Part shown: piece after piece, positions 4,119 to 36,845 of the stretch
Layout: each line of letters begins with the position of its first letter
Position numbering within the stretch: position 1 is the first letter of the stretch
Source: an uncultured Anaerolineae bacterium
GTDB lineage: Bacteria > Chloroflexota > Anaerolineae > Anaerolineales > Villigracilaceae
Direction: 5' to 3'
Assembly: GCA_903910795.1 (NCBI GenBank)
Contig: CAIWAX010000121.1
Location: 5,001 to 43,953 of the forward strand
Length of the DNA: 38,953 nt
Notes under the pieces: generated by a model
The model's input: the letters and a program-made list of their open reading frames with translations, nothing else
Told to the model about the DNA's origin: nothing
Databases searched by the model: none
Translations under genes and position numbers: made by a program

Positions 4119-6650
4119 TTACCCAATGTTATCGGTAAAACCCCACCTATGCCTTGAAGAATTTACACCTTCATACACCACCATCAGCGCCAGGGGCAGA
4201 AGTGGCGTGCTGAAACGCGGGGAGTAGCCGGTGGGAAGCACCACACAATACACCAGCAGGAACGCGACCATCAGCACACCCCAACGCGCGTCGATTTCAT
4301 GGAATGGGCGCAGCCGCAGCAGGGTCAGCAGGCCGAAAACGGTGCCCACCAGCAGCGGCAGGCTGATCAGGATCATATCCAGCGGATTGGCAGCCAAGCG
4401 TACACGCAGTTCATCCAGGCTGCCACCCAGGATGATACGCACCAGGCCTTCGAGAATGGAGGCAAACGAAGATGGGCGGGTATCGCTGGCATTCAACATG
4501 TAGCCCGGGATCAGCCAAGCGTACGCCAGTAAGATCAGGCCCGGCGGCAGGATCAAGGCCAGACCATAGCCGGCCAGTTTTTTCCAGCAGGCGGCCAACC
4601 AGGCGCGCAGGCTGCTCAAGCAGTCTGTCAGGCTGCCAGTCAGCGGCGGGCAAGTCAGCAGGGCGGCAGCAAAAACCAGCCCGATGTAATCCAGGCGCAT
4701 CAAGACAGCCAACATGCCGGTCAGCGTCATGCCGGCCAACTGTTTGCGGCGGGCCAGCCATAGGGTTGCCATCAATAGCAGAACGGCTGCTGGTTCCATC
4801 AAGCCGAAGCGGAAATAGAATAAATAAAAAGATGGCAGGCACAAGATCAGCAGCGCGGTCAGGGATAGAAGATAGGGGCCAGCCCGCGGGATGCGGGTTG
4901 GGTTGGTCATCTGTGCCAACAGCAGAACGCTGAGCAGGGCGCACCAGCTATTCAGGAATAACTGCGCGGCCACGGATTGACCAAACAACAGGTGTTCCAA
5001 GCCCACCAGGTAGGGGAAAAGGATCTTGTAGGCCCGCGCCGAGTGGTTCAAGAGCAGGAAATCACCTTCAACGAAGATATTGCGCGCCAGGGTTTGGTAT
5101 TCGATATTATCCTGCCCCTGTGGAAAAACCGCCACACTGCGCAAATCTCCGGCATCGAGACACAGGAACATGATCAGCAGCGGAATGCCAAGCGCCACCA
5201 GAAATTCCAGCCAGTGATAGCGGCGGCCGGGCCGCCGGGCCAGGAAAACCAGTTTGACCAATCCGAATCCGGCGATCACAAAGGGAATCAGGTTTTCAAA
5301 ATCCTTGCGCTGAAAAGCGACAGCCACCACCACGAAAAATGCGCCCGAACCCGCCAGGAACAAGTCAACCGGTTGGAGAATGTCCGCTCTGTACAGGCGA
5401 CTTAACCCAGCCAGAATCGCCAGCGTGATAAATCCCAATAGCCAGGTCAGCGTCAGCGCATCAAGGAGCCCCAGGAGATTGAGCACCAGCGGGGTCAGTT
5501 CCAACCCGGAGGCTGAGCGCCAAACGCGGTTAGCGCCCAGCGCCGGGGTAATGACCCCATCTGCGCTGGATGTGGCTAAATCGAATTGTTGATTCGCATA
5601 ATGTTTAAAAACCAGCCAGCCCTGCAGCCGGTATTTGCCGGGCTGCAGGCCGCTCGCAGCCAATTTTGAGGGGCGCTCCAGGGTCGAGATCGGCACTTTC
5701 TGCGCGATCCCGGTTTGCAAGTTGCTGATCTCAGCCTGCCCGTCAGTGACACCTTGTGCGAAAACCAGCGGGCTTTCAGCGTTTTCCAACTGCAGGTAAC
5801 CGGTAAAATCCAGCCTAATCCACAAGTTGTTCAGGTTTTCGGCAGGGCTGTTAATCCACTCAATGGGGAACTCGCGCGGGCTTTGATAGGGCGCGCGCAT
5901 CAAATCCGCCAATCCGGGATCGAGCAAGGAAGCATAACTTTTTTGGGGAGTGGCATGCTCTCCGCTTGCCAGTTGAACTTCGAGCCCGGTCTGCGGGAAG
6001 GTCAGGCAGGCCGATAGGCGCAGGACCAGCAGCAAGCCTGACAGGAAGAGTACCGGTTTAGGAGCGAAAAAACGGGGGTTTAATAATACGGCCAGTGGCA
6101 GGAGGCAGGCTGCCAGTACGAATTCCAGCAGCGAGTTCCAGGGCAGCCCATCCAGGCTGCCGGTCAGGGGCGTGCGCACTGCCAGGATGGCGTACAGACC
6201 GGCAATTGTCATTGCCGCGGCCCATTTTTCCCGGCCCTGTAAGTGGCCGGAAGGCGCGGGCTCCTGACTGCCGGGGAAAAAGTAAAGGAACTCGACGCAA
6301 ATCAGCCAGACGCAGGCCAAGCCGGGCGCCGATTGCAGGATAATATCCGGCCGGGCGCCGCGTACCAGGAGAATTACCGTCAGAGCTGGCGGGATCAGCG
6401 CCGGAAGAAGTTGGGCCCCCACACCGCGCAGGCACAGGCGCGTTTTCAGGCTTTCCAGCCGTTTACTGGAGGACAACCCCCGGCGCCACACAATCAACAG
6501 GAGTGCCCCGGCTGCCAGCAGGCCGGCAGCCAATAGCAGCTTGTAGATCGTTATGCGGCCAGGCATGACCAGACTGGCCAACCCCGCCAGACAACATTCC
6601 AGAACTGCGAGAAGATAAAACAAGCCGGGGCGCTTTGGCAATGTGGGCAT
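4119..6650 (-). CDS. Large polytopic membrane protein, GT-C/ArnT-like glycosyltransferase candidate
   Basis: About 843 residues with many hydrophobic helices. The N-terminal part has several helices, then a soluble stretch of about 150 residues (near 235-380, LDPGLADLMRAPYQ...), then a second block of helices. The second block starts with FPQGQDNIEYQTLARNIF and continues with segments such as LFPYLVGLEHLLFGQSVAA, which resemble the acidic first loop and following helices of GT-C (PMT/ArnT-like) enzymes. If so it would transfer sugar from a lipid-linked donor, but substrate is unknown. An in-frame TTG at 6701 lies inside prmA; the ATG at 6650, 23 bases after prmA, is preferred. Its position between prmA and dnaX does not reveal its role. 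Confidence 0.7.
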   Translation of the reverse strand: MPTLPKRPGLFYLLAVLECCLAGLASLVMPGRITIYKLLLAAGLLAAGALLLIVWRRGLSSSKRLESLKTRLCLRGVGAQLLPALIPPALTVILLVRGARPDIILQSAPGLACVWLICVEFLYFFPGSQEPAPSGHLQGREKWAAAMTIAGLYAILAVRTPLTGSLDGLPWNSLLEFVLAACLLPLAVLLNPRFFAPKPVLFLSGLLLVLRLSACLTFPQTGLEVQLASGEHATPQKSYASLLDPGLADLMRAPYQSPREFPIEWINSPAENLNNLWIRLDFTGYLQLENAESPLVFAQGVTDGQAEISNLQTGIAQKVPISTLERPSKLAASGLQPGKYRLQGWLVFKHYANQQFDLATSSADGVITPALGANRVWRSASGLELTPLVLNLLGLLDALTLTWLLGFITLAILAGLSRLYRADILQPVDLFLAGSGAFFVVVAVAFQRKDFENLIPFVIAGFGLVKLVFLARRPGRRYHWLEFLVALGIPLLIMFLCLDAGDLRSVAVFPQGQDNIEYQTLARNIFVEGDFLLLNHSARAYKILFPYLVGLEHLLFGQSVAAQLFLNSWCALLSVLLLAQMTNPTRIPRAGPYLLSLTALLILCLPSFYLFYFRFGLMEPAAVLLLMATLWLARRKQLAGMTLTGMLAVLMRLDYIGLVFAAALLTCPPLTGSLTDCLSSLRAWLAACWKKLAGYGLALILPPGLILLAYAWLIPGYMLNASDTRPSSFASILEGLVRIILGGSLDELRVRLAANPLDMILISLPLLVGTVFGLLTLLRLRPFHEIDARWGVLMVAFLLVYCVVLPTGYSPRFSTPLLPLALMVVYEGVNSSRHRWGFTDNIG

Positions 6651-13787: not shown

Positions 13788-14038
13788 ACGAGCATCGCCA
13801 GGCGGTCATTTTTGGGCACAGGCTGGGCAAAACAGTACAAAACAGACTATGCCGGCGGCTTACACATCCGGTATCCCTCAAAAGTAACTGCTCACGGGGT
13901 GGGTGCTGTTTGGCAGAAACCCATCCTCGCAAAGAACGCGCGAGGTGGCGGGCGCTTTGCGAGCCATCGAAATATAGTTCTTTTACCGACTTTATTCTTA
14001 ATTGACGAAACAGGCTGAGTAGTCACCCTCAAAATTCA
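13788..14038. other. Convergent intergenic region with dispersed repeat
   Basis: Nothing protein-like is seen. The stretch holds the 43-base repeat at 13884-13926, then a hairpin-prone tract (CCTCGCAAAG...CTTTGCGAG, about 13925-13966), and CTGAGTAGTCACC near 14014, which faintly resembles the inverted repeat end GTGAGCAGTTAC found at the second copy of the element. Confidence 0.6.
13884..13926 (+). repeat. Dispersed 43-bp repeat, copy 1
   Basis: This 43-base stretch starting GTAACTGCTCAC is found again at 21284-21326 with a single G/T difference. It can fold as a hairpin: GGGTGGGT pairs imperfectly with AACCCATCC around an inner TGC/GCA. Confidence 0.9.
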
Positions 14039-28892: not shown

Positions 28893-30251
28893 TTATTCCC
28901 CGGCTCGCACAAAATCCATATATCTTGTGCGGCGGTCGATGAACTCCTGATAATCCCGGGAGGCACTGAACTCGGCCTCGGCCATCAAGGCGTTGATTTC
29001 ATGCACCCGGCTGCCCAGCAGTTTTATCAAGCGGGCATCCAGCAGACCCTTGCGAGCCATATCATTCATTACATCCATGACATCAATGTCATTTCTGGCA
29101 GAGCGGTAGGGGCGGTCTTCCGATACTGCGGTGAACACATCCGCGATGGCGATGATGCGCGAGCCGGTGGTCAATTCCTCGCCCTTAAGCTGGTAAGGGT
29201 AACCGCTGCCATCCAAACGCTCGTGGTGATAGGAACTCCAGACCCGCACATTCTCAAAAACGCCGATACGCTTCAAAATGTGGTTGGTGTAGTAGGCATG
29301 GTGACGCATGACCGCGGATTCTTCTGTCGACAATGCGGCGGGTTTATCGAGAATTTCCAGCGGCACGCACAGCTTGCCAATATCGTGCAGATAACCGCAC
29401 AATGAGATCAGGCGCTGATCCAGCATCGAAAAACCGGACAGTTCGGCCAGCGCCTGACCGCAAACCGCCACACGGCTGGAATGGGTGGCAGTAAAGGGGC
29501 TTTTGAAATCAACCAGGCGGCAGAAAAAGCGCGAGAGCTCCAAAAATTCAGCGCCTTCCAGCGAAATCACATCCCAATCCAGGTCATTCCACAGGGCGAT
29601 ATCCGCGCTGGGCGAAACCATGTCAAACCAGATAAAATCCTTTTCGGCCAGGCGCAGGAAGGCATCGACCACTTCCGGCATGAAATCATCCCCCGATTTA
29701 CGCTTGACCCGGTTGGTAATGCTCCTGACCTGCGAAAGCACTTCCTTGCGCGGGTCAATCTGCACCGCCACGCGCTCGGCCAGATGCAGGATATGGCTTT
29801 CCACCGGCACAGACAGCCCCATGTTGAGCTTTCCAGCGCCGTCATTCCAATTGACATGGTGAAACCGGACAATCTCAGCAGCCAGGGCAAAGGCCGGGTA
29901 GTTGGAGATAAGCAAGTAGCCCACTTCAGCATGCACAGCGGACACTTCGTTATGCGTAGCATACACTGCGTTATGCGCAGCATACACTGCGTTATGATCG
30001 GCAGAGACTTTTGTATCAAAATTGAGCAGGTTCAGGCGCTCTTTGAGGGCAGTCGCGCCGATATCATGTAGCGCCGCGGCAATAGCCAGCTCCTTGCAGC
30101 GCGCCACAGGCAACCCAAACTGGCGGCCAAGCTGGTACGCCAGGTAGGCTGTGCGCCTGTGATGATCAGCCAACTGCGGGCTGATCGAATCGACTGCATC
30201 CGAAATGCAGAGGATCAGGTCAAAAACCGGGGATTTCAGTTTATAAGACAT
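28893..30251 (-). CDS. Two-HD-domain protein with C-terminal HD-GYP, probable cyclic-di-GMP phosphodiesterase
   Basis: The 452-residue protein has an N-terminal HD domain (HHRRTAYLAYQLG, AAALHDIG, about 28-160) and a C-terminal HD-GYP domain (about 240-420) with YLHDIGKL, MRHHAYYTNHILKR, the signature HHERLDGSGYPYQLKG and the DVFTAVSEDRPYR motif, so the catalytic residues of HD-GYP phosphodiesterases are present. Residues about 86-107 are three in-frame copies of the local 21-bp repeat (HNAVYAA, HNAVYAT, HNEVSAV) inserted between the AAALHDIG region and the native HAEVGYLL motif. The gene begins 16 bases after sdhB and is probably the last gene of the sdh operon. Confidence 0.9.
   Translation of the reverse strand: MSYKLKSPVFDLILCISDAVDSISPQLADHHRRTAYLAYQLGRQFGLPVARCKELAIAAALHDIGATALKERLNLLNFDTKVSADHNAVYAAHNAVYATHNEVSAVHAEVGYLLISNYPAFALAAEIVRFHHVNWNDGAGKLNMGLSVPVESHILHLAERVAVQIDPRKEVLSQVRSITNRVKRKSGDDFMPEVVDAFLRLAEKDFIWFDMVSPSADIALWNDLDWDVISLEGAEFLELSRFFCRLVDFKSPFTATHSSRVAVCGQALAELSGFSMLDQRLISLCGYLHDIGKLCVPLEILDKPAALSTEESAVMRHHAYYTNHILKRIGVFENVRVWSSYHHERLDGSGYPYQLKGEELTTGSRIIAIADVFTAVSEDRPYRSARNDIDVMDVMNDMARKGLLDARLIKLLGSRVHEINALMAEAEFSASRDYQEFIDRRTRYMDFVRAGE
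29933..29995 (+). repeat. Three tandem 21-bp repeats inside the HD-GYP gene
   Basis: Copies at 29933-29953, 29954-29974 and 29975-29995 share the core ATACACTKCGTTAT (the first has GGACAC). They are in the same orientation on the plus strand as all other copies. On the coding (minus) strand they read in frame as 7-residue units, so they lengthen the protein by 21 residues without a frameshift. Confidence 0.95.
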
Positions 30252-30267
30252 ACACCAGGAAGGCTGT

Positions 30268-30975
30268 TCAGTCCAATTTACCGGTTATCATGGCCAGTTT
30301 TATCTCGCCAATGGCCTTTGTGATCTGGATTTCGCGCGGGCAGGCCATCGTGCAGTTGTAGACGGTATGGCAGCGCGCCACACCGTTGGTTTCGCTGAGG
30401 ATGTGCAGGCGCTCAGAAGCAGCTTCATCGCGGCTGTCGAAAATAAAGCGGTGGGCGGTGACAAACGCGGCCGGGCCGAGGTAGGTTTCACTGCCCCAGA
30501 AAGACGGGCAGGAGGTGGTGCAGGCCGCACACAGAACGCACTTGGTGGTCTCATCGAAACGCGCGCGCTGTTCGATGGTTTGCAGGCGTTCCTTGCCATC
30601 CGCGGGCAACGGACTATCATTAATGAAATAGGGTAAAACCGTTTTATAGTTGTCAAAAAACGGTTTCATATCCACAATCAAATCCTTGATGACTTTCAGG
30701 CCAAGCAAGGGTTCCACCGTGATCTTTGCGCCAGTGTCGCGCACCAGGGTCTTGCAGGCCAGTTGATTGCGTCCATTGATGCGCAGCGCGTCCGACCCGC
30801 AGACACCATGTGCACACGAGCGCCGGAAAGAGAGCGTGCCATCCACGTGACCCTTCACCTTCTCCAGCAAGTCCAGGATGCGGTCAGTCTCGGGGGCATC
30901 GAGCGTATAGGTCTCGTAATGCCACTTCTTATCCACTTCGGGATTGAAACGGAAGATCTTCAGGGTGACTTGCAT
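30268..30975 (-). CDS. sdhB: Succinate dehydrogenase iron-sulfur subunit
   Basis: The 235-residue subunit has all three cluster motifs: [2Fe-2S] CAHGVCGSDALRINGRNQLAC (two parts, CAHGVCGSD at about 59 and the last Cys near 79), [4Fe-4S] CVLCAACTTSCP (about 151-162) and [3Fe-4S]-type CHTVYNCTMACP (about 206-217). It passes electrons from the SdhA FAD to the quinone site. It is transcribed after sdhA with a 51-base gap containing a strong hairpin. Confidence 0.96.
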   Translation of the reverse strand: MQVTLKIFRFNPEVDKKWHYETYTLDAPETDRILDLLEKVKGHVDGTLSFRRSCAHGVCGSDALRINGRNQLACKTLVRDTGAKITVEPLLGLKVIKDLIVDMKPFFDNYKTVLPYFINDSPLPADGKERLQTIEQRARFDETTKCVLCAACTTSCPSFWGSETYLGPAAFVTAHRFIFDSRDEAASERLHILSETNGVARCHTVYNCTMACPREIQITKAIGEIKLAMITGKLD

Positions 30976-30996
30976 CTTCGCCTCTACTTTAGAATT

Positions 30997-31017
30997 GGGC
31001 GCAGCAACACTGCGCCC
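30997..31017. other. Intercistronic hairpin between sdhA and sdhB
   Basis: GGGCGCAG (30997-31004) and CTGCGCCC (31010-31017) form a perfect 8-bp GC-rich stem with a five-base loop and no T-run. It could stabilise or separate the sdhA and sdhB parts of the message. Confidence 0.8.
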
Positions 31018-31026
31018 CTACGATTA

Positions 31027-32817
31027 TTAATAAACGCGCACTTTGGGTTGATATTTGGTGACCGTGACCGGCTTGTAACTGATCTTGAGCTCATCTGCCT
31101 GCTTAACAACCAGGGTGTGCTTCATCCATTCTTTGTCATCACGGTTGGGATAATCCTCGCGCGAATGGCCGCCGCGGGATTCCTTGCGGTTCAGGGCGCT
31201 GACCGCGATCACTTCGGCCAGTTCGAGCATGTTGCCCAATTCCCAGGCATTGATCAATTCGGTGTTAAAAATCTTGCCGGTATCGGTCACCTTGACGTTC
31301 GCGTAACGTTGCTTCAATTCGCGCACCTTCTCGATGGCAACCAGCATGTCCTTTTCGGTGCGGTAAATGCCGACCAGGTCAAACATGATCTTTTTCATCT
31401 CGGTTGAGATGTCGTACACATTTTCCTTGCCGGTGGCGTGGCGCAGGGCGTCAAACTGCGAGCGGGCCGCGGCCTCCGGCTGCTTGGGAAGACTTTCAAA
31501 CTCGACCCCATTGGCGTACTCGGCCGCGCGCAGACCGGCGTGCTTGCCAAAGACAACCAGGTCAAGCAGCGAGTTGGTTCCCAAACGGTTACCGCCATGC
31601 ACAGAAACACAGGCACATTCACCGGCCGCGTACAGTCCGGGGAAGGGTGTCTGTTTGTCATCGATCACCACTTCGCCGTACTTGTTGGTGGGGATGCCGC
31701 CCATGGTGTAATGCGCGGTCGGCTGGATGGGCATCATCTGGGTCACAGGATCAACACCCAGATACACCCGGCAGAAATCAATGATATCGGGCAGCTTTTG
31801 CAAGATCTGCTCGCCTGTCACAGTGTATTTGGAACCGTCCGGGTTGGTGCGGCCGTCCAGTTCAGCAATGCGGTTGACAGTCTCGGGGCGGACATCCAGG
31901 TAGACATAGTTGGAGCCGTTGATGCCGCGACCTTCGCGGATTTCGGTATAGATGGCGCGGCTGACCACATCACGTGAGGCCAGATCCTTGACCGTAGGGG
32001 CATATTTGGGCATGAAGCGCTCGCCCTTGCCGTTGATCAACACACCCCCGTCGCCGCGCACACCCTCGGTGATCAGAATGCCGAGTTTATAGATACCGGT
32101 CGGGTGGAATTGGAAGAATTCCATATCTTCCAACGGCAGACCCTTGCGCAGGAGCATGGCCGCGCCGTCACCGGTATAGGCGTAAGCGTTGGAAGTGACT
32201 TCAAAGATGCGTCCGTGCCCACCAGTGGCAAAGATGACGGCTTTGGCGTGAAAGGTATGTAGTTCGCCGGTGGCAAGTTCAATCGCCACCACGCCCACGG
32301 CCCGGCCATTTTCGATCAGCAGGTCAATCGCCTGGTATTCATCGAAAAAGTTGACCTTGTTCTTCAGGCACTGCTGGTACAGGGTTTGCAAAATCATGTG
32401 ACCGGTACGGTCGGCGGCATGACAGGCGCGCCTGACCGGCTTGCCGGTTTCGTTGTTGGTATGACCGCCGAAGAAGCGTTGTGAAATGCGGCCTTCGGGC
32501 GTGCGGTCAAAGGGCAGGCCCATATGTTCCAGTTCCAGGATGGCTTGCGGCGCTTCCTCGCACATGAACTGAATCGCGTCCTGGTCGCCGAGATAATCGG
32601 AGCCCTTGATGGAGTCATAGGTATGCCACTCGATGCGGTCTTCTTCCAGGTTGCCAAGCGCGGCGCTGATGCCGCCCTGGGCTGCGCCGGTATGCGAACG
32701 TGTGGGGTACAACTTGCTGATAACAGCCGTTTTGGCGGTGCGCGAAGCATACAGGCCCGCCATCAAACCAGCGCCGCCCGCGCCTACTACAATCACATCA
32801 AATTGATGAGCATTCAT
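31027..32817 (-). CDS. sdhA: Succinate dehydrogenase flavoprotein subunit
   Basis: The 596-residue protein starts [21 protein letters not shown] (dinucleotide fold, FAD), with [18 protein letters not shown] (His for covalent FAD), [26 protein letters not shown] (split: [11 protein letters not shown] and [10 protein letters not shown]), [14 protein letters not shown] with active-site His, and [20 protein letters not shown]. It oxidises succinate to fumarate. The ATG at 32817 is chosen over in-frame upstream starts at 32829 and 32841, because those add residues encoded by the repeat/spacer and AGGATGG precedes 32817. Confidence 0.97.
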
Positions 32818-32837
32818 ACTTTCAACCATCCTAATAT

Positions 32838-32858
32838 GCACAGCATATACTTCGTTAT
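32838..32858 (+). repeat. 21-bp repeat, single copy at the sdhD-sdhA junction
   Basis: One copy (one difference from consensus: TATAC for TACAC) lies between sdhD and sdhA. The TAA stop codon of sdhD (32855-32857) is part of the repeat itself. Confidence 0.93.
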
Positions 32859-33274
32859 GCCCAGATAACCATCAGGCCAATCGGGCCCATTACAACCATC
32901 ACCACAATGCTGAGAAAACGGACAATTTTGCGGCCAGTGGCGCCAGCAATGTAATCATCACAGACTACCACCAAACCGTGGACACCGTGCGCCATAGCCA
33001 GCAAGTACAGCAGGCTGGCGGAAACCTTCCAGAAGGGGTTCGACCACATCGAAAGATCGAGCACATTGGTGTTTTGAACATGCGTGGTGTTGGGCATAAA
33101 ACTCCAGCGCATCAGATCAGCCATGTTCATCTGAGTGCGGGCGCCCATGATCAGCGCGCCGATGGCGCCCATCAGGATGAAGGCATACATTCCCAGCGCC
33201 GAAAGACGCGTAAAGAGCCACATCAGGGTTTCAAAATTCAGCCCGCGTTTATTGAGGGGTAAGGTTCGTCTCAT
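32855..33274 (-). CDS. sdhD: Succinate dehydrogenase membrane anchor subunit
   Basis: A 139-residue membrane protein with three helices (about 20-42, 80-105 and 115-138). [14 protein letters not shown] carries histidine(s) of the kind that bind heme b or the quinone site in anchor subunits. Its place between sdhC and sdhA, and co-directional transcription six bases after sdhC, support the assignment; anchors are poorly conserved, so C and D naming is by order. The stop codon is supplied by a 21-bp repeat copy. Confidence 0.88.
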
Positions 33275-33280
33275 GGCTGC

Positions 33281-33655
33281 TTATCCTCCCAGCGCAGTGT
33301 GAATGATGACATAGACAGCAATCAGATAGAGCGGGATGAAAACCGCGAATTCGATCCAGATGGCTTCGCGCTGGTGTTCGATCAGCGGCGGCCACAAATC
33401 CAGGATGGTGATCCGCAGGCCGTTGATGGCGTGGAACGTGGCGCAGAAAAATATAATGATCTGGAAGATCCAGCTCTCATACACGACATTCCCGGCATGA
33501 CCGAGCTGTCCGCCGATAAATGAGGACAGGATGTGGGTACCTACAAAAACTACAATGCCCAGTCCACCGATGCGGTGCAGTACAAAGGTCAACATAGGTT
33601 CCCTGCCTTTATACTGCAGCCCGGTGTTCAGGCTGACATTCCTATTCAAGCCCAT
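33281..33655 (-). CDS. sdhC: Succinate dehydrogenase cytochrome b subunit
   Basis: The 124-residue protein has three helices and the SdhC signatures LHRIGGLGIVVFVGTHI (SxxxHR-like quinone-site segment and heme-side His) and FHAINGLRITILD. It anchors the complex and binds heme b. AGGAGG seven bases before the ATG at 33655. First gene of the sdhCDAB-HD-GYP operon. The promoter is not obvious; the leader contains the four-copy 21-bp repeat array. Confidence 0.92.
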   Translation of the reverse strand: MGLNRNVSLNTGLQYKGREPMLTFVLHRIGGLGIVVFVGTHILSSFIGGQLGHAGNVVYESWIFQIIIFFCATFHAINGLRITILDLWPPLIEHQREAIWIEFAVFIPLYLIAVYVIIHTALGG

Positions 33656-33694
33656 CTATACCTCCTGGAGAAAATCGATCATTCCGATCAATTT

Positions 33695-33778
33695 GCACAG
33701 CATACACTGCGTTATGCACAGCATACACTGCGTTATGCACAGCATACACTGCGTTATGCACAGCATACACTTCGTTAT
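33695..33778 (+). repeat. Array of four tandem 21-bp repeats
   Basis: Four copies at 33695, 33716, 33737 and 33758, identical except that the last has TTCG instead of TGCG. No spacers. Adjacent units create TATGCACAGCATA, a 5-3-5 perfect palindrome at each junction, and each unit has GCATA...TATGC ends, so the array can fold as successive hairpins. It lies 40 bases ahead of sdhC, so it is probably in the sdh leader. Confidence 0.97.
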
Positions 33779-33927
33779 TGCGATCCCGTACTGAAACCGG
33801 GATATCCATACTGACCATGGGGATTATATCCCAATCAAATACCGGGATTATTCCATTATCTCATTTGTTAATCAGACATTCAACGTGACAAAACTCATGG
33901 ATTATGAGTTCGTTATTCGGACGAAAT

Positions 33928-33948
33928 GCACAACATACACTTCGTTAT
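33928..33948 (+). repeat. 21-bp repeat, single copy
   Basis: One difference from the TTCG form of the consensus (CAACATAC for CAGCATAC). A partial relative (GAGTTCGTTAT) is just upstream at 33906-33916. Confidence 0.9.
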
Positions 33949-34089
33949 CGCCATAAACCGGCGAAATCCGGAAGCCTAGCGTAGGAAGGGTGATAAGAAA
34001 GTGACAATCATCATCTCGATTTCATTCCACACATCCTATAATAATACGCACAATGACCTTTATAATCCAATTATTCTGAGTGTCGATGT

Positions 34090-34110
34090 CCACAGGATAC
34101 ACTTCGTTAT
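34090..34110 (+). repeat. 21-bp repeat, divergent copy
   Basis: Nineteen of 21 bases match; the differences are in the first part (CCACAGG), while the ATACACTTCGTTAT core is intact. Confidence 0.88.
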
Positions 34111-34155
34111 TCACAATTCTAATCCATTTTTTCAGAAGCGATTACAATTCCTGAT

Positions 34156-34197
34156 GCACAGCATACACTTCGTTATGCACAGCATACACTTCGTTGT
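34156..34197 (+). repeat. Two tandem 21-bp repeats ahead of qcrA
   Basis: Copies at 34156-34176 (perfect TTCG form) and 34177-34197 (ends GTTGT). They end about 50 bases before the qcrA start and are likely in the qcr leader. Confidence 0.95.
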
Positions 34198-34250
34198 AAG
34201 GCGCTCGCAGGAGCTGCGACCAGCATAAAACAGTGCCAGAGGAGGCATGC

Positions 34251-34748
34251 ATGTCAGGTTCGAACCACCTCAGCCGCCGTGACTTCATGAAAGTCACGAC
34301 AGGCGTCATCGGAGGCATTATCACCGTTGTAATCGGGGCGCCAGTCATCGATTATCTGGTCGACCCGGCCCTGCGCGCAGGCGCAAAAGAAGCCTGGATC
34401 CCGATTGGGAAGCTCGACTCCATCCCGATCGATAAACCCACCCCGTTTGCGTTCACCCGCACACAGGTTAACGGTTGGGAGAGAACCGGCACCAGCTTTG
34501 GCGGATTCATCATCCGCCGCTCAGCCGACCCGAAGGATATTTTGATCCTTTCGAGCCGTTGCACGCACCTGGGTTGCAGTGTCAACTGGCACGCAGATGC
34601 CAACGAATTCATCTGCCCCTGCCACGATGCCAAATTCAGCAAAGAGGGCAAGGTGCTGGATGGCCCGCCTCCCAAACCCCTCAACCAATACACCGATTTC
34701 AAGGTGGACGGCGACGGCAATCTGCTCATTTTCTTTAAGGAAGGCTAA
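34251..34748 (+). CDS. qcrA: Rieske iron-sulfur protein of menaquinol:cytochrome c reductase
   Basis: The 165-residue protein has a twin-arginine motif (SRRDFMK, about 9-15) followed by a hydrophobic anchor, then a Rieske domain with both [2Fe-2S] ligand boxes: CTHLGC and CPCHDAKFS (usual CPCHGS, here Asp). It takes electrons from quinol to cytochrome c. GAGGAGG lies just before the ATG at 34251; an in-frame GTG at 34233 overlaps that site and is rejected. Length matches QcrA of Bacillus. Two bases separate it from qcrB. Confidence 0.95.
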   Translation: MSGSNHLSRRDFMKVTTGVIGGIITVVIGAPVIDYLVDPALRAGAKEAWIPIGKLDSIPIDKPTPFAFTRTQVNGWERTGTSFGGFIIRRSADPKDILILSSRCTHLGCSVNWHADANEFICPCHDAKFSKEGKVLDGPPPKPLNQYTDFKVDGDGNLLIFFKEG

Positions 34749-34750
34749 GC

Positions 34751-35446
34751 ATGCACAGCATAGGTATGTGGCAGAAACTCCGTACAGCATACACTACGGT
34801 ATACCAATGGCTGGATGAACGCCTGGGGTTGGGTGAAATGTACACCAACTTGCTCGACCGCCCCGAACCCCTGGGCAACTGGTGGAACACCCTCGGCTCC
34901 GCCAGCCTGTTCTTATTTATCTTGCAAGCCGCCACGGGCATCTTCCTGACGGTTTATTACACCCCCTCCCCCGATCACGCCTACGACAGCATCAACTACA
35001 TTATGACCGGCGTGGCCTTCGGGTGGCTGGTGCGCGGCATTCACCACTGGGGCGCAACCCTGATGGTGCTGGTGGTCTTCATCCACATGCTGCGCGTCTT
35101 TGTGACCGCCTCCTACAAATATCCGCGCGAACTAACCTGGCTGGTTGGCGTGGGATTGCTGCTCCTGACTCTGGGAATGGGCTTTACCGGCTACCTGCTG
35201 CCCTGGAACCAGAAGGCTTACTGGGCCACCACTGTGGCGACCCAGATCGCCGGCAGCATGCCTTTCGTGGGCGATTTCATCCTGAAAGCCTTGCGCGGCG
35301 GGCCGGACCTGAGCGCCCTGACCCTGCAGCGCTTTTTTGCGGCTCACATCTGGATCCTGCCCGCTGTCTTAATCGCATTGATCGGCATTCATCTGTACTT
35401 GATCATCAAGCACGGCGAATCCCACTTCCCAACGAAGGAAGACTAA
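34751..35446 (+). CDS. qcrB: Cytochrome b (b6-type) subunit
   Basis: The 231-residue protein matches the cytochrome b6/QcrB length: N-terminal amphipathic VYQWLDERLGL, four helices, heme histidines in GIHHWGATLMVLVVFIHMLRVF (split: GIHHWGATL and VFIHMLRVF) and in FFAAHIWILPAV/GIHLYLI, and GFTGYLLPWNQKAYWA at the Qo side. No cysteine occurs anywhere in the protein, so the covalent heme c(i) attachment seen in b6f and Bacillus QcrB is absent. AAGGAAGG precedes ATG 34751. Residues near 12-17 (TAYTTVY) come from a divergent 21-bp repeat copy, and the first residues MHSI also look repeat-derived. Confidence 0.93.
   Translation: MHSIGMWQKLRTAYTTVYQWLDERLGLGEMYTNLLDRPEPLGNWWNTLGSASLFLFILQAATGIFLTVYYTPSPDHAYDSINYIMTGVAFGWLVRGIHHWGATLMVLVVFIHMLRVFVTASYKYPRELTWLVGVGLLLLTLGMGFTGYLLPWNQKAYWATTVATQIAGSMPFVGDFILKALRGGPDLSALTLQRFFAAHIWILPAVLIALIGIHLYLIIKHGESHFPTKED
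34753..34802 (+). repeat. 21-bp repeat remnants in the qcrB 5' coding end
   Basis: A copy at 34782-34802 matches the consensus in 18 of 21 bases and is in frame within qcrB. At 34753-34762 the first ten bases of the unit (GCACAGCATA) also occur just after the start codon, then similarity ends. Confidence 0.8.
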
Positions 35447-35456
35447 GGAGAACGCC

Positions 35457-36845
35457 ATGAAAAGTACCCATAAGTTCGGTATGAACAACGAAACCAAAGA
35501 AAAAATCAAAAAACGCTATGATCAAATCCTGACCCGCGGTGAACGCTTCTGGCCCGACAGCATCTTCAAGGATGCGGTCATGGCCCTGGCGATCTTCCTG
35601 GTGCTGGTACTGCTGGCATCCTTCGTGGGTGTGCCGGTTGAACCAAAAGCCGACCCCAGCGACACTTCGTACATTCCACGACCGGAATGGTACTTCCTGT
35701 TCCTGTTCAAATTTCTGGCGCTATACGGGCAGATTCCCCTGCTCGGGAAAATTGAATGGCTCGCCACTGTGATCATTCCCACCATCGCCATCCTGCTGTT
35801 GGTGGTGATGCCTTTCATCGACCACAAATCCGAACGGCATTACAGCAAGCGGGTGCTGCCCATCTCGATCATGGGCATCCTGGTGGTCAGCATGGTCACG
35901 CTGACCTTGATGTCGGATGTGCCCACCGGCCCCACCCTGGTTGGCGCGCTGCAAACCATCGGCGGGCTGGTCATCCCCAGCCTGGCTTACATCCTGCTGC
36001 TTTTTGTCTTTAAGAACATGTCCAACAAGACCATGATCTGGACAGCCGGAATCACTGCCGCGCTGATGATCGGCTTCTGCGGTGCGGTGCTGGCCCTGTA
36101 CCAGGCACCGCCCAGCACTACTGAGACTGTCGCCACGACTGTGGTGGAGCAGATCCAGGCCGGGCAGCAGTTGTATTCCGTCAACTGCGTGGAATGCCAC
36201 GGCGATGACGGCAAAACCACCACCATCAAGGGTGTCAAGGGTCTGGAAGGCAAACAGATCTTTGCCATTAACAGCAAGGATGTGCTCAACACATTGGATG
36301 ACCCGGCCCTGGAAGGCGTGATCGCCTACGGCCGCCCGGACGCGGGGATGAACCCCTTCGGCAAAGCCTACAACGCCCAGGGTCTCTCCAAGAGCGAGAT
36401 GGGTTACATTGTGGTCTTCATGCGCTACATGTGGGATGACCGCTTTGAGAAACCGACCCTCAAGCCGCTCTACCCGCCGCTGGCAGCCGGTGAAATCCCA
36501 TCTTACGAAGCACAGATCAAGCCGATCGTCGATCGCTACTGCGTTTCCTGCCACCGGCCCCAAAAGGTCAACCGGAGCTACTTGATGGATACTTACGATC
36601 ACATCCTCAAATCCGGCGATGACGCCCCGAACGTGACGGCCGGAGATATGAACAGCATCCTGATGCAGCTCATTCAGGGCCAGCGCGCCGTTGTCTCCGG
36701 CGACGGGATCGACGCCATGCCGCCCAACGGCAAGCTGCCCGCCGATGTGGTAGATGTCTTCAAGCGCTGGGTAGCGGCTGGTATGCCCAACACCGCCGCC
36801 GATGCCAAGGCTCTGCCCACCGCGGTGCCAACCGCCAAACCGTAA
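35457..36845 (+). CDS. qcrC: Cytochrome b subunit IV fused to a diheme cytochrome c
   Basis: The 462-residue protein begins with a subunit IV-like part: three or more helices and the PEWY motif (IPRPEWYFLFLFK, about 73-85) of the quinol-oxidising site, followed by further helices to about 225. The C-terminal half lies outside the membrane and has two c-type heme sites: CVECH (about 243, with a later Met in GRPDAGMNPFG) and CVSCH (about 364). Bacillus QcrC is shorter (about 255 residues) with one heme; this diheme tail is an extension that could pass electrons onward without a separate cytochrome c. Ten bases after qcrB; GGAG before ATG. Confidence 0.94.
   Translation: MKSTHKFGMNNETKEKIKKRYDQILTRGERFWPDSIFKDAVMALAIFLVLVLLASFVGVPVEPKADPSDTSYIPRPEWYFLFLFKFLALYGQIPLLGKIEWLATVIIPTIAILLLVVMPFIDHKSERHYSKRVLPISIMGILVVSMVTLTLMSDVPTGPTLVGALQTIGGLVIPSLAYILLLFVFKNMSNKTMIWTAGITAALMIGFCGAVLALYQAPPSTTETVATTVVEQIQAGQQLYSVNCVECHGDDGKTTTIKGVKGLEGKQIFAINSKDVLNTLDDPALEGVIAYGRPDAGMNPFGKAYNAQGLSKSEMGYIVVFMRYMWDDRFEKPTLKPLYPPLAAGEIPSYEAQIKPIVDRYCVSCHRPQKVNRSYLMDTYDHILKSGDDAPNVTAGDMNSILMQLIQGQRAVVSGDGIDAMPPNGKLPADVVDVFKRWVAAGMPNTAADAKALPTAVPTAKP

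Follow-up and report, generated by a model that had tools for sequence, protein, structure and literature searches.

Small dispersed repeats in bacteria

The small dispersed repeats (SDRs) of cyanobacteria, reportedly described by Elhai et al. in 2008 in Genome Res 18:1484, are among the closest parallels to the subject of this work, a 21-bp unit (F1) that recurs in and around respiratory genes of an uncultured Anaerolineae bacterium of the Chloroflexota. The DNA analysed is a stretch of 38,953 nucleotides (positions 5,001 to 43,953 of contig CAIWAX010000121.1, assembly GCA_903910795.1), hereafter the window. In the passages drawn on here, SDRs are said to be elements that 'might be mobile' (PMC2884548) and SDR5 is described as inserted precisely in HIP1 (PMC4390886). 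F1 and a second family of 24-bp units (F2) behave like these repeats: the F1 unit, with its sharp edges, and the F2 unit both fit a size of 'some 20 bp', F1 is dispersed and also tandemly iterated in varying number, and filled and empty sites exist for both families. This likeness is one of description, taken from papers that mention the SDR work, and the host phylum would differ. Possible points of distinction are the common preference of F1 and F2 for sites reading C-N3-A-T, recreated by the unit's 3' end, and the unit lengths of 21 and 24 bp, with 27 bp in a weaker family (F3). Narrow literature searches found no description of such repeats in Chloroflexi, and PMC3126725 yielded nothing on SDRs.

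Rickettsia palindromic elements (RPEs), which insert in frame into protein genes, resemble F1 in that respect. Unlike F1, they are 105-146 bp long with long stem-loops, according to the portion of the review used here (PMC2229807). With bacterial miniature inverted-repeat transposable elements (MITEs) F1 shares a non-coding, dispersed location and a short terminal dinucleotide, but it has no terminal inverted repeats, whereas the MITEs reviewed there are ~100-200 bp and mostly bounded by such repeats (PMC2229807). Like repetitive extragenic palindromic (REP) sequences and REPINs, F1 is short, palindromic, biased towards intergenic DNA and found in arrays; unlike them, it carries neither a GTAG nor a CGTC tag, was found without a flanking REP-associated tyrosine transposase (RAYT) and mostly occurs as lone units, not as inverted doublets. 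As to a stable stem-loop, its folding energies are weak but compensatory changes are present. As far as the excerpts go, GTAG repeats have been reported in Chloroflexi, short-stemmed or bulged REPs may evade detection, CGTC repeats have no dedicated transposase and some RAYT genes are not flanked by REPs (PMC3733652), the REP, RAYT and MITE material as a whole coming from parts of four sources (PMC3116915, PMC3733652, PMC6006769, PMC2229807).

A 21-bp unit and its empty sites in relatives

The 21-bp unit occupies many sites of one genome, and relatives lack it at the sites compared. On this comparative evidence F1 is probably a very small dispersed repeat, mobile in this lineage. In a large conserved protein without Pfam match, encoded on L083 (L numbers denote retrieved stretches), the residues SEAYAVH stand exactly where relatives continue uninterrupted: a 7-aa gap is seen in 6/6 same-genus homologues and in one partial homologue of the same order (a weak match in G011 being left aside), and a 21-bp gap in the DNA of all six. 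A 7-residue gap also separates the L075 protein from its sole usable homologue, and L082 shows one in a single piece against L187, L191 and L192. In the window, the locus encodes, by Pfam, an HD-GYP/HDOD protein, succinate dehydrogenase subunits (one of which scores below the Pfam cut-off), a Rieske protein and cytochrome b/c genes, and F1 occupies the following positions:

29933..29995, plus strand: array of three units within the HD-GYP/HDOD gene (28893-30251, minus strand), a 63-bp in-frame insertion of 21 residues
32838..32858, plus strand: single unit at the sdhA/sdhD junction, within which the subunit gene 32855-33274 has its stop codon
33695..33778, plus strand: array of four units ahead of sdhC, a minus-strand gene starting at 33655; no copy in five congeners, whose flanks are too diverged here for an exact gap length
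33928..33948, plus strand: single intergenic unit between sdhC and the Rieske gene
34090..34110, plus strand: single unit of the CCACAGGATA subtype in the presumed Rieske leader
34156..34197, plus strand: array of two units upstream of the Rieske gene
34751..34762, plus strand: partial unit at the cytochrome b start (its left half, ATGCACAGCATA), a 15-nt in-frame addition
34782..34802, plus strand: diverged single unit inside the cytochrome b gene, a 21-nt in-frame insertion

The HD-GYP protein has 21 residues fewer in 4/4 same-genus homologues (the gap being exact in two and shifted by a few residues in the other two), and a 63-bp excess over both homologues that were aligned as DNA. A gap of 21 nt is found in 3/4 congeners at the sdhA/sdhD junction, in 4/5 at the Rieske leader and in 4/4 at the copy inside cytochrome b (34782..34802), with a further 15-nt gap in 4/4 at the start of that gene. 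The syntenic sdh/qcr stretches of five congeners (two of them partial) contain no F1 copy at up to three mismatches and four chance-like ones at four. Because orthologous sites lack the unit and the excess is nearly always a whole number of 21-bp units, the repeats are best seen as inserted DNA and not as a regulatory array of these operons. Since inserts are whole units (the 15-nt partial copy aside), genes remain in frame, as in cytochrome b, the HD-GYP gene and the L083 gene; entry into genes without frameshift and a short self-spreading repeat had both been anticipated by the original prediction, which was made from the window alone.

That prediction had also counted at least thirteen copies in a single orientation, and the core GCATACACTKCGTTAT indeed has 13 matches in the window at up to three mismatches (7 exact, 4 with one mismatch, 2 with two), all on the plus strand between 29938 and 34802, the rest of the window having none; 100 dinucleotide shuffles gave a mean of 0.22 matches and a maximum of 2. 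The full unit is GCACAGCATACACTTCGTTAT, isolated copies reading AT-(GCACAGCATACACTTCGTTAT) with sharp edges, and three arrays in the window show a period of 21. Alignment of 41 single copies yields a 23-bp block, ATGCACAGCATACACTTCGTTAT, with information close to zero directly outside it on both sides. The exception is a C four bases 5' of the block, present in 26/41 singles, and in 26/38 (P 1e-7) after six single groups without the TGCACA half (L068, L070, L077, L079, L084 and L092) had been excluded as probable chance. Most singles have flanking DNA that is mutually unrelated. In the retrieved stretches there are 43 groups with 55 units, namely 38 singles and arrays of 2, 2, 3, 4 and 6; units either abut at period 21 or stand singly, without the unique spacers of a clustered regularly interspaced short palindromic repeat (CRISPR) array, and terminal inverted repeats are missing from the unit. 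The unit length is a multiple of three as claimed, but openness on both strands holds for only 5/6 frames, one antisense frame containing TAA.

A palindromic junction able to fold had likewise been proposed. The palindrome, ATGC-ACA-GCAT, is there, on one side only in an isolated unit, but its folding is weak (-1.4 kcal/mol, equalled by 40/200 shuffles). Three of 74 24-mers (50 + 24) were judged to be chance and omitted when the units were aligned. Among 71 distinct units, columns 2 and 8 of the left palindrome TNC-ACA-GNA pair as GC in 38, CG in 25, AU in 1 and UA in 1 (other, 6), a covariation that rests chiefly on two subfamilies, and columns 13 and 19 as A-U in 46, G-C in 14 and G-U in 3 (other, 8), all these counts being inflated by kinship among units.

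A site preference recreated by the unit

Counting isolated copies without unit-like neighbours, one per distinct upstream flank, C is found at -6 in 19/32 F1 copies, A at -2 in 25/32 and T at -1 in 29/32; the corresponding figures for F2 are 17/25, 23/25 and 23/25. The C at -6 is significant in both families (P 1e-4 for F1 and 2e-5 for F2), and placement just 3' of C-N3-A-T is, statistically, a preference of F1 and F2 and not a strict rule. Where the site is unoccupied in relatives, it reads CGTAAT in 4/6 of them at L083 (the other two differ), and at the F2 site at 35459 it reads CGCCAT in 3/4 congeners and TGCCAT in the fourth. As C..AT is native to these empty sites in most of the relatives, the target mostly predates the insert.

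The 3' ends of the units are themselves of this form, CGTTAT in F1 and CAGTAT in F2, and by eye the two families have loose termini in common (GNANAG..TTCNNTAT). A unit end that recreates C-N3-A-T at unit distance would explain arrays at unit period. In the scheme that we propose, a trans-acting machinery would add a unit 3' of C-N3-A-T by means of a few bases in which the site matches the 3' end of that unit, and each inserted unit would recreate the target, at which further units could be added with the same period to give arrays. F2, which is distinct in sequence, shares the preference and the type of 3' end, and a single machinery therefore probably mobilizes both families. More tentatively, and less likely than not, a dedicated machinery in this lineage might act like a template-copying enzyme or like a single-strand transferase, adding distinct units of 21 or 24 nt (perhaps also 27 nt) to sites with a match to the 3' end of the unit, which would be both product and next target.

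Distribution of F1, F2 and F3

The repeats had been thought to be confined to the sdh/qcr locus, which does not hold: in the whole assembly (5.01 Mb in 496 contigs) the F1 core matches 33 times in forward and 24 times in reverse orientation at up to two mismatches, on 34 contigs, against 1 for the same core read backwards. Thirteen of these 57 lie on the window's contig and 44 on others. Random scatter in both orientations had been named by the original prediction as speaking against it; both orientations do occur across the genome, but the scatter is not random, non-coding DNA being preferred and copies being clustered at sdh/qcr. The window is the largest cluster among the retrieved stretches, with 7/43 groups in 4.9 kb where a Poisson model expects 0.04. 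Of all groups, 26/43 are non-coding in stretches whose coding fraction is 0.82, a value obtained by a crude gene-calling script of our own and lowered to 0.71 by a second version with 20 more contigs; since this caller detects open frames only, the frame use of copies within genes is not taken as evidence.

Outside the source genome F1 is rare. Among 11 genomes of the genus, at one mismatch, the source has 37 matches, two others have 1 each and eight have none. Across the order, 24/301 genomes have the core, with 1 or 2 copies in each of the 23 other than the source; as the backwards control likewise matches in 24, the core occurs beyond the source genome about as often as chance would have it. 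The related subtype CCACAGGATACRCTTCGYTATCC exceeds chance, matching at two mismatches in 24/150 genomes of the family (control, 5), 18 of the 24 belonging to one sister genus with 1-5 copies each. By eye, the related CCACAGGATA repeat lies directly before an SbcC-like gene in seven genomes of the sister genus (L048, L050, L053, L049, L116, L102 and L103); its presence at the same place in all seven marks it as old there and vertically maintained. When GTDB contigs were scanned for exact matches, 11 stretches came back, 5 of them Chloroflexota by title and some sharing a genome. Viral carriers were rejected, one 20-base pattern having no exact match in viral contigs. A side observation concerns L071:3450-3472, where by eye an F1 copy apparently begins the lipoprotein signal peptide (MHSKHFVISLIVLIASLSLTACG) of an HtrA-like protein.

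F2, GGAAAGTACCCATAAGTTCAGTAT with a period of 24, far outnumbers F1 in the source genome, with 171 + 127 = 298 copies at up to two mismatches, and has none in 79 other genomes of the family, nor does its control; it also occurs at L083:570-641. F3 is a 27-bp family, more degenerate than the other two. In 20 further contigs of the source genome (167.5 kb) there are 0 F1, 5 F2 and 5 F3 units, those of F3 being counted at a loose threshold. The features of these families, and the longer repeats that contain F1, are as follows:

35459..35482, plus strand: one 24-bp F2 unit at the start codon of the next qcr gene (cytochrome b C-terminal/cytochrome c); in-frame insertion, with a 24-nt gap in 4/4 congeners
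33830..33856, plus strand: F3-like copy; congeners have a similar native stretch, hence insertion is not demonstrated at this site
L080:8159-8348 and L085:72-125: F3 arrays of 27-bp period, CCGGGATTATTTCAT, degenerate, F3 lying near F1 copies in several contigs
L091:3884-3990, L086:100-237 and L066:3433-3540: larger repeat with an internal F1 copy

Two further observations stand apart. At L092:11618-15854 a palindrome, CGATTTGCTTAGCAAATCG, adjoins F2-like units, its core occurring on 11 retrieved stretches, and other dispersed motifs, CCGTGAGCAGTTAC and TAATGCCCAAGTGA, lie in the window at 13884, 21284 and 21445, each being present on six retrieved stretches.

Orientation, local spread and the search for a mover

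Adjacent F1 groups have the same orientation in 13/15 pairs (six of which come from the window and are hence non-independent), and contigs with at least two groups are unanimous in 5/7 cases for F1 and 5/6 for F2. A CACTGCG variant is shared by 5 window units in two arrays 3.7 kb apart and is found in one other retrieved copy. Agreement within families and the sharing of this variant fit nearby spread better than a strand rule, and the sdh/qcr cluster most plausibly reflects early insertions from which copies spread locally, rather than a designed regulatory array. A replication-strand rule was rejected, GC skew being patternless and the majority orientations of F1 and F2 agreeing on 7 and disagreeing on 7 of 14 shared contigs (contigs with a tie would drop out of this comparison). 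An all-pairs count of orientation across families looked coherent and was not used, because the pairs are non-independent and the F3 set (4 mismatches in 17) includes estimated chance hits.

The genome has one Y1 transposase domain, within a fusion protein and by eye without an HUH dyad. RAYT and reverse transcriptase (RT) were both rejected as movers, neither being linked to the repeats. By eye, L180 (C178) has an RT like that of diversity-generating retroelements (DGRs) adjoining a formylglycine-enzyme-like gene, and L181/L182 (C292) an RT adjoining or fused to a Cas1-like sequence. Non-exhaustive scans for repeated words in 400-585 kb of the genome's own DNA found no long element with F1 or F2 ends.

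Alternative explanations

Several observations weigh against a mobile unit with a target of its own. The relatives compared are other species, with 60-89% aa identity at the locus and ~41% for two HD-GYP homologues, and no within-species polymorphism of units was seen. The gap is 24 nt instead of 21 in the fourth congener at the sdhA/sdhD junction and in the fifth at the Rieske leader, and at L082 it is 7 residues in two pieces in L190 and L193, 9 in L194 and none in L188 and L189. Some copies sit within larger dispersed repeats, of ~108-150 bp common to L091, L086, L066 and partly L076, and of 75 bp common to L061 and L073, so that not all are independent 21-bp insertions. F3 (n=17) has A in 12/17 and T in 11/17 and no clear C, weak downstream A signals (16/32 in F1, 11/17 in F3) find no explanation in the target rule, and the orientations of F1 and F2 are random relative to each other where the two share a contig (7 same, 7 opposite). 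No enzyme, template or source element for F1 or F2 was found; there is no F1 copy within the 3.4-kb locus of the Y1 fusion gene, nor, at up to three mismatches, in the loci of the two RT genes, which have one chance-like copy at four.

These points have to be set against what the other explanations can offer. A protein-binding array coordinating the sdh and qcr operons, as the original prediction had considered, would account for copies in what are presumed to be the leaders of the two divergent operons, for a period of two helical turns and for the clustering of 7/43 groups at sdh/qcr, but it is very unlikely, given that 44/57 genome matches lie on other contigs, that copies occur inside coding sequence as well and that the parts of these operons compared in five congeners have none at up to three mismatches. 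That the cluster titrates DnaA is extremely improbable. Array junctions read TTATGCACA or TTATCCACA, and TTATNCACA, which we take to match the DnaA-box consensus, occurs with 8-nt flanks in 10/43 groups (3/5 arrays, 7/38 singles) that hold 13 of the 22 TTATNCACA sites counted in 401 kb of this genome's DNA; nevertheless, isolated copies do not have a conserved TT in front of them, so 31/38 singles are without a box, which resembles a by-product of unit joining. An assembly artefact of the metagenome bin, to which a genome split over 496 contigs might point, has a probability close to negligible, since copies lie in conserved syntenic operons and open frames, units have diverged in sequence and single copies are far shorter than one read.

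Two explanations invoke transposition of a more familiar kind. Movement of a REP/REPIN-type element by a RAYT (HUH) transposase, or strand transfer like that of IS200/IS605, is unlikely. In its favour, the palindrome TNC-ACA-GNA is kept through compensatory change, and a one-sided target matching the unit's 3' end resembles the cleavage-site logic of IS200/605. Against it stand the missing GTAG or CGTC tag, the weak hairpins, a sole Y1 domain without F1 copies nearby, the lack of agreement in orientation between F1 and F2 where they share a contig and a column 2-8 covariation that comes mainly from two subfamilies. Excision footprints of a larger transposon, or copies borne by larger repeats, subsequently multiplied by slippage, are highly improbable; AT at both unit ends does resemble a 2-bp duplication and a few copies are inside 75-150 bp dispersed repeats, but such footprints sit poorly with one site preference for units of two distinct sequences and lengths, with the unrelated flanks of most singles and with the failure of the word scans, non-exhaustive as they were, to reveal a long element with these ends. 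Slippage, which had also been suggested for the expansion of the repeat, may apply to the growth of arrays but cannot account for dispersal.

Implications

To our knowledge, F1 and F2 are among the smallest DNA units for which there is comparative evidence of precise insertion. Two families with one site preference that is recreated by the unit ends amount to a specific, testable rule for the movement of small units, and the unit-end rule supplies a simple reason for tandem growth. If a dedicated unit-adding machinery does exist, lengths divisible by three would let its units spread through coding DNA. F1 and F2 write segments of 7 or 8 residues into proteins such as cytochrome b.

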